This document shows, piece after piece, positions 11,974-23,148 of a stretch of DNA of 36,512 nt. Source of the DNA: an uncultured Bacteroidales bacterium (GTDB taxonomy: Bacteria > Bacteroidota > Bacteroidia > Bacteroidales > Muribaculaceae); assembly GCA_902760865.1 (NCBI GenBank), contig CACWID010000042.1, positions 1 through 36,512 on the forward strand, read 5' to 3'. The stretch's first letter is position 1. Each line of letters begins with the position of its first letter. Made by a program: the position numbers and the translations under genes. The notes beneath the pieces were generated by a model. That model saw only the letters and a list, made by a program, of their open reading frames with translations. It was not told where the DNA came from and did no database searches.

Positions 11974-12510
11974 TAGTCACTAGTCACTAGTCGCTAGTCA
12001 TTAGTCGATTGTTAATTGATACATACATTAGACTACACGAGGGGCAAAAAAGTTGCATCGTTTGTCAGAATTTATTGACCATCGCAACAAATAGATGCTA
12101 ATAATGCATTTAACATCTTACTGATTTCTGTAATGAGCCCCATGGCAACAGACGCCCTTGAAGCATCAAAATAGTTCAGTCGCTGGCATATCTCTATCTG
12201 TGTTGACAATTCCCAAAGGCTTCCTCTTGCTATAAAAAGGAATTTTATCAGGTCTTTATCTGTATTACGACCTTCCCCCTCAGCAATATTGGAAGGTATC
12301 GAAACAACTGCCCTCCTCATCTGGTCAGATAGAGCGAACATCTCTTCTTTGGGCAAGCTTTTAGCCAAAGAATAGACCTCAATGGTCAGATCCATTGATT
12401 TTTGCCACACTATCAAGTCCCTATGGTCTCTATATCTCATATTATAATCTTATAAAGAATCACATAGAATTACATTCGACTAGTGACTAGTGACTAGCGA
12501 CTAGCGACTC
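11974..12510. mobile_element. Heptamer-armed insert carrying a four-helix-bundle gene
   Basis: Five heptamers of TAGTCAC type at 11974-12008 face an inverted array of GACTAGT-type heptamers at 12476-12510; the arms match at 30 of 35 positions. The only gene between them is the four-helix-bundle gene. The right arm starts at the last base of the yidC stop codon. The layout is that of a 23S rRNA intervening sequence, but placed between protein genes. Calling it mobile is inference. Confidence 0.6.
12072..12440 (-). CDS. Four-helix-bundle protein (23S rRNA IVS type)
   Basis: The 122-residue product fits the IVS-encoded four-helix-bundle family (TIGR02436) closely: LIVWQKSMDLTIEVYSL, FALSDQMRRAVVSIPSNIAE followed by GEGR, FLFIARGSLWELSTQIEI. 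The family is known from intervening sequences in 23S rRNA and is related in fold to the Avd accessory protein of diversity-generating retroelements; its biochemical role is unknown. It lies between yidC and the TM2 gene, transcribed in the same direction, and is flanked by inverted heptamer arrays. No separate promoter is visible. Confidence 0.92.
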   Translation of the reverse strand: MRYRDHRDLIVWQKSMDLTIEVYSLAKSLPKEEMFALSDQMRRAVVSIPSNIAEGEGRNTDKDLIKFLFIARGSLWELSTQIEICQRLNYFDASRASVAMGLITEISKMLNALLASICCDGQ

Positions 12511-14599
12511 AACGCTTCCGGCGCTGTGCGCCAGAGCGCTGCTTCTGCTGCTGTTGCTGCATCTTCTGGACCTCCTCCATGCGCTCGAGCCACTTGGATT
12601 TCTTCTTGGGCTTGGCCTGGTTGGCGGCGATGGTGGCGCGCACCTTGTCCTCGGTGACGAAGGCGCGGCTGACGTAGGTCTGGATGATGGTTATGAGCAG
12701 TGCGATGAAGTAGTAGTAGCTCAGGCCAGATGCGTAGTTGTTGAACCAGAAGAGGAAGAACAACGGCATCATGTAGAGCATGATCTTCATGCCCGGCATG
12801 GACTGGGACTGGGCCTGCGACTTGCTGGTGAGGTAGGTGTAGAGCAGGTTGGTACCGGTCATCAACAGACAGAAGAGGCTGATGTGGTTGCCGAACAGGC
12901 TGGAGATGATGGGGATGTGGGTGCTCCACTCCAGAATCTTGTCGGGGGCGCTCAGGTCATTGGCCCACAGGAAGGACTGACCTCTCAACTCGATGCACGA
13001 GGGGAAGAAGGTGAACATCGCGATGAGGATGGGCATCTGCAGCATCATGGGCAGACAGCCGCCCATGGGATTGGCACCGGCCATGCGGTAGAGCTCCATG
13101 GTCTTCTGCTGCTTCTTGATGGCGTCTTCCTGGTTGGGATACTTCTCGTTGATGGCAGCGATGTCAGGAGCGAGGATGCGCATCTTGGCCTGGGAGACGT
13201 AGCTCTTGTAGGTCAACGGCCAGAGGACGAGCTTGATGAGGATGGTGAGCACCAGGATGATGATACCATAGTTGCTGATGAACTTGCCGAGCCAGTCGAA
13301 CACGGGGATGATGACGCCGGCGTTGATCCAGCGGAACAGGGTCCATCCCAACGGGATGAGGCGCGTGAGCTTGAGGTCCTCCTTGGGGGAGTACTTGTCA
13401 TAGCTGGCCAGCGTGTGGTAACGGTTGGGGCCCAGGTAGAAGTAGAACGAGGCGGGCACAGGCTTGTCGCTCGAGTAGGGCACCAGGGTGTGGATGTTGA
13501 CGTCCTTGAGGTAGTCCTCATAGTCGGCGGCGTCCTTGTCGATGGCGACGCTGCTCATCTTGGCGGTGGAGAAGATGCTGTCGGTGATAAGCACGGTGGA
13601 GAAGAACTGGTTCTTGGCGCTGATCCACTTGAGTTTGTCGGTGAGGTCCTTGTCGTCGCTGCCGCTCTCGCTGGTGGTCTGGACGTCGCCGCCCTTGCCG
13701 GCAAACTTGTAGCAGATGCCGCTCCATCGCTCCTCGAAGGTCTTGCCGAACTCGTGCCTGGAGATCTTCTGGTGCCAATCAAAGTCCACCATGTTGATGT
13801 TCATGGGGATGATGCGCGACATGGACTGCTGCACCATCTCCATGCGGACCATGTAGCTGCCCGGGACGAGGGTGTACTTGAGTCCCCACTGTGCTCCGCC
13901 CTCGAGCTGGAGGTTCATGAGCACGGTGCTGTCGTTGAGCTGCTTGGGCTCGAAGTAGAAATTCTTGGTCTCGAAGCGCTGGGTGTTGTTGCTCAGGGTG
14001 AAGCTGTAGTCGTTGTCGCCCTTGTCAAAGAGGACGAGCTGTGGCGACTTGTAGGTCTTGTAGCCCTTGAGCGTGGCGCGGGAGATGATGCCGCCCTTGG
14101 TCGAGAGTTCGACCTTGACCGAGTCGTTCTCAAGGGTGACAAACTGCTCGGTACCGTTGAGCGACGCGGCAAAGGAGCCGTTCTTGGCATAGACGTCGAG
14201 GACCCGCTGCACGGCCTGCACGGCGAGGTTGTGCACGGCGGGGTTGGCCGACGTGGTGGCAGTGACCTCGTCCCACTGGACGGTGGTGTCGGCGACGGTG
14301 ATGGTGCCGGTGATGTTGCCGTCCTTGAGGGTGAGCACGACGCCCTCGTTGTTGATGCCGGCGTTGTCGGCGGGCATGCTGGCGAGGATGCTGTTGAGGT
14401 GTGTGATGTCGGTGGTGGCCAGGGTGTCGATGTCACCGGCCGCGATGTCACGCCGCTGCTGTTGTTGCTGTGCGGCGGCGATGGAGTCGTTCAGTCGCTG
14501 ACGCTCGGCGAGCTCGGCCTCGCTGGGCTTCTGGAGCCACATGAAGCCGAAGATGACGAGTCCCATCAGCAACATTCCAATCAAAGTGTTTTTGTCCAT
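12509..14599 (-). CDS. yidC: Membrane protein insertase YidC
   Basis: The 696-residue product has an N-terminal helix (TLIGMLLMGLVIFGFMWLQ), a large periplasmic P1 beta domain to about residue 400, and the conserved insertase core: YGIIILVLTILIKLVLWPLT, MGGCLPMMLQMPILIAMFTF, and later helices. It ends in a Gln- and Arg-rich tail. YidC inserts and folds inner membrane proteins, alone or with SecYEG. In other Bacteroidales pyrG and yidC are adjacent, as I recall for Porphyromonas; here they are separated by the GxxExxY insert. The stop codon at 12509-12511 abuts a heptamer array. Confidence 0.97.
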   Translation of the reverse strand: MDKNTLIGMLLMGLVIFGFMWLQKPSEAELAERQRLNDSIAAAQQQQQRRDIAAGDIDTLATTDITHLNSILASMPADNAGINNEGVVLTLKDGNITGTITVADTTVQWDEVTATTSANPAVHNLAVQAVQRVLDVYAKNGSFAASLNGTEQFVTLENDSVKVELSTKGGIISRATLKGYKTYKSPQLVLFDKGDNDYSFTLSNNTQRFETKNFYFEPKQLNDSTVLMNLQLEGGAQWGLKYTLVPGSYMVRMEMVQQSMSRIIPMNINMVDFDWHQKISRHEFGKTFEERWSGICYKFAGKGGDVQTTSESGSDDKDLTDKLKWISAKNQFFSTVLITDSIFSTAKMSSVAIDKDAADYEDYLKDVNIHTLVPYSSDKPVPASFYFYLGPNRYHTLASYDKYSPKEDLKLTRLIPLGWTLFRWINAGVIIPVFDWLGKFISNYGIIILVLTILIKLVLWPLTYKSYVSQAKMRILAPDIAAINEKYPNQEDAIKKQQKTMELYRMAGANPMGGCLPMMLQMPILIAMFTFFPSCIELRGQSFLWANDLSAPDKILEWSTHIPIISSLFGNHISLFCLLMTGTNLLYTYLTSKSQAQSQSMPGMKIMLYMMPLFFLFWFNNYASGLSYYYFIALLITIIQTYVSRAFVTEDKVRATIAANQAKPKKKSKWLERMEEVQKMQQQQQKQRSGAQRRKR

Positions 14600-14640
14600 T
14601 CTTTATAATTATTTTAGCTTTATATTCTTCTTTATTAAGT

Positions 14641-15219
14641 CCGTGCTGCGCACGGAGAAATTAAACAAAAATTTATTTTAAAAATTAAACAAAATTCAGC
14701 ACAAAACTTCAAGAACATTTTCTAATCGGTTATCACGCCAATTTAATTTCTTGATCTCTCCATCGTCACGCCTGCAATACCACTCACTGAACAGACTATT
14801 ACAGCCAAAATTAAATAATAGACCGAATGGCATATGCGTCAAGTGCATATAGTTCCATAATTGTTTACGGTGCTCATTATTCACATATTTGACTGCCTTC
14901 AACTCAATGATCGTATCGTCGTCCACGACCAGATCCATACAATAATGTTTCTTCAACTTCACATCCTTCCAGTAAATCGGCAAGTTAACTTGCTCTTCGC
15001 ATCGCAGATTGCTCTGTTCCATCAGATAAACAAGTGCAGCTTCATAAGCAGACTCAAGTAAACCGGGATGATACTCGGCATGGACTTGCATAGCTAGACC
15101 CGTTATCTTATAAAACGATAGACAGCGTTCACTAATTTCTGCGATAGTTAACATTAGTGGTTGGGATGTCTTGTTTAATTTTATTTTAAATTTTGTTTAA
15201 TTTCTCGGCCGCCAGGCCG
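14641..15219. mobile_element. Hairpin-capped inverted-repeat insert carrying GxxExxY gene
   Basis: The left end has a CCGTGC/GCACGG hairpin (14641-14655) followed by an arm with two AATTAAACAAAA motifs (to about 14696). The right end has the inverse arm (15171-15206) followed by a CGGCC/GGCCG hairpin (15206-15219). The arms begin with the same 16 bases, GAGAAATTAAACAAAA, when the right arm is reversed. The only gene inside is the GxxExxY gene. Gene-less copies of the same framework lie at 17113, 20175 and 22991. Mobility is inferred. Confidence 0.65.
14696..15154 (-). CDS. GxxExxY protein (PD-(D/E)XK-like)
   Basis: The 152-residue product has the signature GLLESAYE near residue 31 that names the GxxExxY family (TIGR04256; PDDEXK_3). 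The nuclease-like core is visible as YCMDLVVDDDTIIELKAVK, giving D and ExK positions, followed by QLWNYMHLT and FGLLFNFG. The function is unknown; a nuclease role is inferred from fold. The gene sits between pyrG and yidC in the same orientation and is closely flanked by the inverted arms: its stop codon overlaps the end of the left arm. Lower GC content than neighbours supports recent gain. Confidence 0.93.
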   Translation of the reverse strand: MLTIAEISERCLSFYKITGLAMQVHAEYHPGLLESAYEAALVYLMEQSNLRCEEQVNLPIYWKDVKLKKHYCMDLVVDDDTIIELKAVKYVNNEHRKQLWNYMHLTHMPFGLLFNFGCNSLFSEWYCRRDDGEIKKLNWRDNRLENVLEVLC

Positions 15220-15226
15220 ATAATAT

Positions 15227-15243
15227 CTTAGCGCCTTTGCGCC

Positions 15244-15246
<3 letters not shown>
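15227..15246. repeat. Short repeat at the pyrG stop codon
   Basis: CTTAGCGCCTTTGCGCCTTA consists of repeated (C)TTAGCGCC/TTTGCGCC units and ends in the pyrG stop codon (complement of TTA at 15244-15246). Confidence 0.6.
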
Positions 15247-16905
<1,659 letters not shown>

Positions 16906-17100: not shown

Positions 17101-17112
17101 AGGATGTACCAT

Positions 17113-17220
17113 AATTGCGACTCGGTAATATAACCGTGCTATCGCACGGGAAATTAAACAAATTTTTAAATTAAAATTTTATATTTAATTTGTTTAATTT
17201 CCCGCCTGCAGGGCGGTTAT
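17113..17220. mobile_element. MITE-like hairpin-arm-arm-hairpin element, copy 1
   Basis: CCGTGC/GCACGG hairpin at 17134-17149, then GAAATTAAACAAATTTTTAA, a mirrored arm ending TTTGTTTAATTTC, then CCGCC/GGCGG hairpin at 17202-17216. A subterminal GCGACTCGGTAATATAA precedes it and is shared with copies 2 and 3. It has the framework of the GxxExxY insert without a gene. Confidence 0.7.
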
Positions 17221-17267
17221 AGTTCTAGCAGTTGAATTATGACACGGCCTCAGCTCTTCGGGCGGTG

Positions 17268-20150: not shown

Positions 20151-20174
20151 CCCCGGGGAGAGTGTGTCAGAATT

Positions 20175-20289
20175 ATAACCGCCCTGCGGGCGGAAACCTT
20201 TAGCTCGGCGAAGCCAAATTAATTAATTTAAAAATTTGTTTAATTTCCCGTGCGATAGCACGGTTATACTACCGAGTCACAATTGTGAC
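20175..20289. mobile_element. MITE-like hairpin element, copy 2 (damaged left arm)
   Basis: CCGCCC/GGGCGG hairpin at 20179-20193, then an altered left arm holding an extra AGCTCGGCGAAGCC hairpin, then the usual TTTGTTTAATTTC arm and CCGTGC/GCACGG hairpin at about 20248-20263. The end has a GTCACAA/TTGTGAC palindrome. Orientation is opposite to copy 1. Confidence 0.65.
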
Positions 20290-20305
20290 GCTGCCTCATG
20301 CTTCA

Positions 20306-22975: not shown

Positions 22976-22990
22976 TCAATCGCTAGAATT

Positions 22991-23089
22991 ATAACCGCCC
23001 TGCGGGCGGGAAATTAAACAAATTTTTAAATTAATTTGCTTGATTTCCCGTGCGATAGCACGGTTATATTACCGTGTCGCAATGATGAC
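22991..23089. mobile_element. MITE-like hairpin element, copy 3
   Basis: CCGCCC/GGGCGG hairpin, then GGAAATTAAACAAATTTTTA and its mirror (TTTGCTTGATTTC), then CCGTGC/GCACGG hairpin and TTATATTACCG. It keeps both arms, with orientation as in copy 2. Confidence 0.7.
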
Positions 23090-23148
23090 ATACCGCCAGT
23101 TGTAAAGCGGCCCTCTCTGAGGGGGGGGCAGAGGGGGCCGAGTGTGGG

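Follow-up and report, generated by a model that had tools for sequence, protein, structure and literature searches.

The GxxExxY gene that lies between pyrG and yidC in the window (the whole 36,512-nt stretch of DNA analysed here) is enclosed by inverted, hairpin-capped repeat arms, and the best explanation for this arrangement, to which we assign a probability of about 55%, is that it represents a widespread kind of small unit, built of an arm, one gene and an inverted arm and set between genes. The window unit itself is best read as a small mobile or formerly mobile single-gene unit, similar to the intervening sequences (IVS) of 23S rRNA or to RAYT/REPIN systems and a member of neither.

Placement of a GxxExxY gene within hairpin-capped inverted arms between these two host genes, as proposed in a first-pass annotation, is borne out by the sequence, by profile matches and by shuffles (Table 1). 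Each arm holds two copies of AATTAAACAA and each outer end is a GC hairpin, as first described; the overlap then reported between the gene's stop and the left arm has to be corrected, the stop codon (14696–14698) abutting the repeated arm core, which ends at 14694, with no overlap. Positions 14655–14682 and 15179–15206 are 82% complementary over 28 nt, a further stretch (14681–14692 with 15171–15182) is complementary at 12/12 positions, and the best tandem lag is 12 nt. The unit (L014) has an inverted-arm score of 47, whereas none of 60 dinucleotide shuffles scored above 24, the highest value among them. The predicted sense-RNA fold consists of a hairpin, a long arm stem enclosing the ORF and another hairpin, at −164.9 kcal/mol versus a shuffle mean of −140.7 (z = −3.95, 0/100 shuffles as stable), consistent with the earlier suggestion that the arms could pair in RNA.

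Table 1. Features of the two arm-bounded units and their host genes in the window.
Feature	Position	Strand	Description	Evidence
7-nt tandem arm, 3′ side of four-helix-bundle gene (locus L036)	11974..12009	minus	TAGTCAC-like repeats	
Four-helix-bundle gene, TIGR02436	12072..12440	minus	second unit, immediately downstream of yidC; 23S rRNA IVS-type	
Inverted 7-nt tandem arm, 5′ side of four-helix-bundle gene (locus L036)	12476..12509	minus		
yidC	12509..14599	minus	flanking host gene	ORF, Pfam
Outer hairpin, 3′ side of GxxExxY gene	14640..14656	minus	TCCGTGC / GCACGGA, 3-nt loop	sequence, fold
3′ arm	14655..14694	minus	two AATTAAACAAAA units spaced 24 nt	sequence, repeat search, period
GxxExxY gene	14696..15154	minus	152 aa, PD-(D/E)XK nuclease family	ORF call, profile matches
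5′ arm	15169..15204	minus	inverted copy of 3′ arm, units spaced 22 nt	
Outer hairpin, 5′ side of GxxExxY gene	15205..15220	minus	TCGGCC / GGCCGA	sequence, fold
Arm-like remnant	15228..15253	minus	TTAGCGCC..CCTTAGCGTGAG, overlaps pyrG stop codon	
pyrG	15244..16869	minus	flanking host gene	ORF, Pfam

Capping hairpins are a recurrent property of this repeat family: a GC hairpin abuts 54 of 85 arm cores versus 14 of 339 control AT hexamers, a count that covers the window, stretches of its own genome and eight further loci and in which the 31 cores without a hairpin include inner repeat copies. The stems vary (TCGGCC, CCGCCC, CCGTGC, TCGCGC, TCGCCC and others) yet remain self-complementary. The arm-like sequence next to the unit resembles the arms of another GxxExxY unit found between pyrG and yidC in relatives; since the pyrG stop codon sits within this apparent remnant, repeat sequence may have supplied the last codons of pyrG.

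The window protein scores 120.9 bits against TIGR04256 (GxxExxY, cut-off 35) and 112.6 bits against Pfam PDDEXK_3 (cut-off 22). Those are its only profile matches, so it is neither a REP-associated tyrosine transposase nor any other transposase. The PD-(D/E)XK fold attributed to the family at first reading agrees with the PDDEXK_3 match and with the fold comparison, in which Cas4, lambda-type exonucleases and type IIG restriction domains are the nearest solved folds; Foldseek returned no match at E ≤ 0.001 and a PDB sequence search a single chance-level one (E 0.56). G31, E34, Y37, D74, E84, K86, Q98 and Y102 are invariant in a 44-row alignment of relatives. Among them, the D, ExK and QxxxY pattern is common to the three neighbouring fold groups, and we take these to be the nuclease motifs of the group. 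Of ten pairs compared for dN/dS, three had usable dS and gave 0.044–0.056 (the other seven give no ratio, six because dS could not be computed and one because it was zero); judged from these coding sequences, the protein is under purifying selection.

GxxExxY occurs in 59 of 118 genomes sampled in the phylum and in 8 of 72,556 plasmid records. PADLOC gave two weak matches (E 7e-4 and 9e-4). GxxExxY genes were also seen on five viral contigs (L211–L215), with flanking repeat arms by eye (e.g. AAATTTTACTTAAAATT, GAAATTAAAAGAAAA), some of them with short GC hairpins; a phage collection held no match to the protein of one of these (L213). In the portions of the literature searched, GxxExxY is mentioned only in passing and is given no role.

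Inverted arms are a general companion of the gene. Out of 117 GxxExxY loci, seven were left out as too short and 110 were scored, of which 82 passed the inverted-arm test, versus 14 of 155 neighbouring ORFs and 6 of 188 random window pairs (dinucleotide shuffles for the GxxExxY arms, base composition only for the control and four-helix-bundle tests). Passes were distributed as 8/8 in the own genome, 22/28 in the same phylum and 52/74 across phyla (named genomes). At a score of at least 40, the counts are 45/110, 8/155 and 0/188, respectively, and in a 400 kb sample of the own genome only 2 of 270 ORFs reach that score, none of them among the 96 under 230 aa. All eight own-genome GxxExxY genes score at least 44, in several arm families. 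These locus samples are best-scoring matches and not random draws (top same-phylum and four-helix-bundle matches; best 80 of 563 across phyla, hence close to the subfamily of the query).

Passing loci come from Bacteroidales, Fibrobacter, Treponema, Deltaproteobacteria, Phenylobacterium, Acidobacteria, Calditrichia, Cloacimonadota, Lentisphaeria, Ignavibacteriales, Anaerolineales and Terrimicrobiaceae, several of these taxa resting on one locus each and many being metagenome bins. The 28 loci that fail include Nitrococcus (L112), Planctomycetota (L109 and L116), Caldilineaceae (L099), Latescibacterota (L131), Geothrix (L151), one Acidobacteria (L144) and, within Bacteroidota, L083, L085, L096, L114 and L130; L083 has an array on its 3′ side only. 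The same flanks pass in direct orientation at 47 of 110 loci, at least partly because geneless arm pairs adjoin the gene. The dedicated unit around a GxxExxY gene that the first-pass annotation suspected is supported by the 82 passing loci, against which stand the 28 failures and one armless gene described below. Between co-directional neighbours, GxxExxY lies in sense 67 to 2 and other middle genes 76 to 12 (p = 0.023), a bias that exceeds background only modestly.

The same architecture surrounds a second, unrelated gene. Four-helix-bundle proteins of the 23S rRNA IVS type (TIGR02436; PDB match 2gsc) are found in 88 of the 118 genomes sampled in the phylum. The own genome yields six TIGR02436 matches in one profile search and five in another, one of the six holding stops; the three strong genes sit between inverted 7-nt tandem arms and the three weak matches (L039–L041) fail the arm test. 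Altogether 18 of 36 four-helix-bundle loci pass, namely 15 of 30 in the phylum sample and the three strong own-genome genes. In the window, yidC is flanked by one arm-bounded unit on either side.

The repeat period of the arms follows the gene family carried: among loci with an arm score of at least 30, the only ones taken into this comparison, the tandem lag is 9–10 nt in 55 of 71 GxxExxY arms and 7 or 14 nt in 13 of 15 four-helix-bundle arms. Across unrelated phyla the GxxExxY arm unit reads like ACACGAATT, ACGCAGATT, CACAGAGT or CACGGAG. Per 120 bp, the motif C[AG]C[AGT][AG]A is met 1.91 times upstream of the gene on the sense strand (0.85 on the opposite strand) and 1.67 times downstream on the antisense strand (0.93 on the opposite strand), against a background of 0.33 on each strand. 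Arm similarity correlates with protein similarity over 71 loci (Mantel Spearman 0.33, null maximum 0.15 in 999), a value that still contains shared descent; among the eight own-genome paralogs the matching is weak, 169 of 2000 permutations being as high.

Site occupancy was read in the pyrG-yidC gap of 30 loci (own genome plus 29 relatives from its genus), these being the best-matching ones fetched, with 57 of 61 genomes matched. Here and at the radA site treated below, states were assigned by eye and the reading frames of the main copies were checked. The adjacency of pyrG and yidC, stated in the first-pass annotation, was found in 29 of the 30 loci, the exception being L044, whose contig stops before the neighbour is reached. 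The window-type GxxExxY gene with AATTAAACAA arms is present in four gaps (own genome, L051, L053 and L055; the relatives are 72–82% identical and their frames open), and a decayed copy with arms in a fifth (L052). Five others hold a different GxxExxY subfamily (33–37% identity) with CTCACGCTAAG../..CTTAGCGTGAG arms: L048, L050, L057, probably L044, whose contig ends, and L056, where the gene is decayed. Another three (L045, L049 and L054) hold a four-helix-bundle gene with 7-nt arms of the CAGTTTTCAGTTG or AGTTTTAAGTT type, three (L047, L059 and L069) geneless arm remnants, and 14 no unit, the gap being as short as 22 bp; among these 14, L065 and L068 show one-sided 7-nt-like arrays.

A gap that is empty, filled by the window unit, filled by either of two other arm-bounded units or marked by remnants is what the proposed insert predicts, and the empty sites sought in relatives do exist. 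On a quick YidC tree, with 7 of 27 inner branches left open and decayed or geneless states counted with their type, the site states are mostly intermixed within one 17-genome clade and require at least 10 changes. Two observations had been named beforehand as speaking against an insert. The same gene at this place without arms is mostly not what we find, all intact relatives (L051, L053 and L055) being armed, with the 3′ arm reduced to one repeat copy in L053 and L055. Arms in strains that lack the gene do occur, as the three geneless remnants, which count against an insert, next to 14 gaps without any unit, which count for it. Neither movement of the unit nor an excision product was observed, and no exact target duplication was seen at pyrG-yidC or radA, where the relatives are too distant for base-exact empty sites. 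Long direct repeats at some loci were considered as target-site duplications and rejected; most of those that were read proved to be geneless arm pairs standing next to the gene.

Comparable turnover is seen after radA in a Bacteroides-like genus, for which 31 loci were read (the best 30 and one from Bacteroides finegoldii; 84 of 89 genomes matched). Eleven carry the gene with arms (frame open in ten, broken in L292), one (L287) has a GxxExxY gene without visible arms, two have arm remnants, one a geneless 7-nt unit, two a different next gene, and 14 are empty. In 10 of the 11 units the 5′ arm starts 0–3 nt past the radA stop codon, and in L286 at 6 nt. The arm unit alternates among CACAGAGG, CACAGATT and ACGCAGATT, and both arms change together: over the 9 distinct rows of the 11 units, 237 of 279 cells are paired, 42 of them changed on both sides, compared with 89–130 paired cells when the arms are slid by 1–3. 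When right arms were permuted, which leaves shared descent in place, 1 in 1000 permutations paired as well and 3 in 1000 reached the both-side count. Pairing between the arms is poor in L285 and L292 (10 and 20 of 31).

Arm copies without a gene are scattered over the own genome, several of them one-sided, along with many short tandem arrays in intergenic DNA. Flank repeats of all eight own GxxExxY genes recur in the 400 kb sample (contexts of seven viewed), the search having used 140–150 bp flanks, in which matches need not all be arms. For the upstream flank of the window unit it gave 15 approximate sites, a figure that mixes the arm with a neighbouring CTTAGCG remnant and is not a copy number, the one site viewed being the remnant.

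Within the window, MITE-like units at 17110–17230, 20160–20290 and 22980–23090 contain arm pairs without a gene, or single arms, that carry CCGTGC/CCGCCC hairpins; their outer ends are like ATTATGACAC or TGTGCCAT, and GCATCAACGCCCCC lies nearby. Elsewhere in the own genome (L017–L034), geneless pairs of the window family often lie, by eye, between inverted ends similar to GAGGCTGTGTCATAAT or TTGCAAAACTAAC, which resemble the termini of one or two other mobile elements. Since many geneless pairs lie within MITE-like units with other outer ends, they may have been spread by another enzyme. The 9-mer GGCATCCGC occurs 38 times in 400 kb of the own genome (L216–L235), often beside tandem arms, versus 1–13 times for six altered 9-mers. 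At L012 (own contig C50), the host gene upstream of the GxxExxY unit has its 3′ end repeated on the downstream side, accompanied by more arm copies, which looks as though host sequence had been duplicated along with the unit; the direct repeat at this locus was likewise set aside as a target-site duplication, since the duplicated stretch takes in the end of that host gene.

Two known systems come close to the window unit. The IVS of 23S rRNA are described, in passages of PMC4990558, as holding one short ORF between inverted repeats that form a long paired stem, as occurring sporadically and as thought to spread horizontally. The window unit is like them in its terminal inverted repeats enclosing one ORF, and the four-helix-bundle units share their protein family. 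In contrast to the IVS, the units here lie between protein genes and not inside rRNA, their arms are short tandem repeats with a gene-specific period, and the window unit carries an unrelated nuclease-family gene and no S23p or four-helix-bundle ORF. RAYT/REPIN systems, according to parts of PMC3116915, link a gene to a repeat that is also scattered as geneless, extragenic, hairpin-forming inverted pairs. What the window unit has in common with them is a gene that stands between inverted copies of a repeat also dispersed elsewhere, whereas the proteins here are a PD-(D/E)XK nuclease or a four-helix bundle instead of a REP-associated tyrosine transposase, and the arms are tandem units of ~7 to 12 nt, with several arm families per genome, instead of REP palindromes.

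Two repeat families are related at a greater distance. The BrickBuilt MITE of Porphyromonas gingivalis, also in Bacteroidales, is an intergenic tandem repeat with small inverted-repeat ends; it differs in its 23-nt unit, and the passages of PMC4596501 that describe it name one species and no nuclease gene. The TAACTGA heptamer arrays of Beggiatoaceae, Cyanobacteria and Bacteroidetes are intergenic 7-nt tandem repeats of sporadic occurrence with no evident transfer mechanism; unlike the arms here, they are described in parts of PMC4679880 as direct repeats located mostly upstream of start codons, and the terms S23, four helix and intervening are absent from the main text of that paper.

We propose the following course of events. 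The gene of a unit usually runs in the direction of the surrounding host genes. The encoded protein would recognise the repeat unit of its own arms and would drive, or would once have driven, the spread of the unit and of its geneless derivatives, by analogy with what is thought for RAYT/REPINs. The arms would pair in the host transcript and set the inserted gene apart in a loop closed by their stem, probably a substrate of RNase III by analogy with 23S rRNA intervening sequences, and insertion inside operons would be tolerable because the paired arms keep the gene in that loop and would shield the host transcript. Movement, excision and arm binding are steps that we infer for the unit.

In a rival reading, the unit is an RNA-level passenger, i.e., an intervening sequence that needs only its stem and is cut from the transcript by RNase III, the protein playing no part in movement. 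A stem enclosing the entire ORF is predicted, the four-helix-bundle gene found in the same arrangement is a member of the 23S rRNA IVS protein family, and the Coxiella IVS, with its 28-bp terminal stem, is cut by RNase III and has a protein suggested not to be made in vivo (in passages of PMC4990558). We nevertheless find such a passenger doubtful: the GxxExxY gene is under purifying selection at fixed places, its nuclease residues are kept invariant, a passive stem does not need a gene-specific arm period, and two 23S rRNA motifs, allowing up to 5 mismatches, were found in 0 of 292 loci.

Purifying selection at orthologous places might also point to a module kept by the host for a fixed role in repair, defence or regulation, with the arms acting as terminators, attenuators or operator sites. 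The tight placement of the 5′ arm behind the radA stop codon fits this, and such stems could serve as terminators. The module's patchy presence, the non-homologous gene in the same kind of unit at pyrG-yidC, the recurrence of arm copies without a gene and an arm period that tracks the gene family all argue to the contrary and make a fixed host role unlikely. An ordinary MITE or IS derivative that picked up a GxxExxY gene by chance is a very improbable origin, even with the many own-genome geneless pairs seen by eye inside units with other outer ends: inspection by eye showed no such ends at the GxxExxY units of the window and L016, and the inverted-arm association holds in all eight paralogs, in several arm families and across phyla. 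Chance, in the form of AT-rich flanks or generally repeat-rich intergenic DNA such as the many short arrays of the own genome, is negligible for the set as a whole because of the shuffle, neighbour-ORF, random-window and own-genome controls, even if single weak loci may still be chance.

A small unit of arm, gene and inverted arm therefore remains our preferred reading, and a broader one we hold to be evenly balanced: a large class of mobile units in some ten phyla, in which a small protein (GxxExxY or four-helix bundle) is matched to enclosing tandem-repeat arms and accompanied by geneless non-autonomous copies, the 23S rRNA IVS being a special case and many intergenic short tandem repeats being its debris. 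Such a class seems undescribed in the literature collection searched. For the GxxExxY and the four-helix-bundle IVS-type families, the matched repeat arms supply a testable substrate, and assays of binding and cleavage can build directly on the arm period. The link between arms and genes further suggests an origin for part of the short repeat DNA between genes, and that the intervening sequences of rRNA are members of a wider class living between protein genes.
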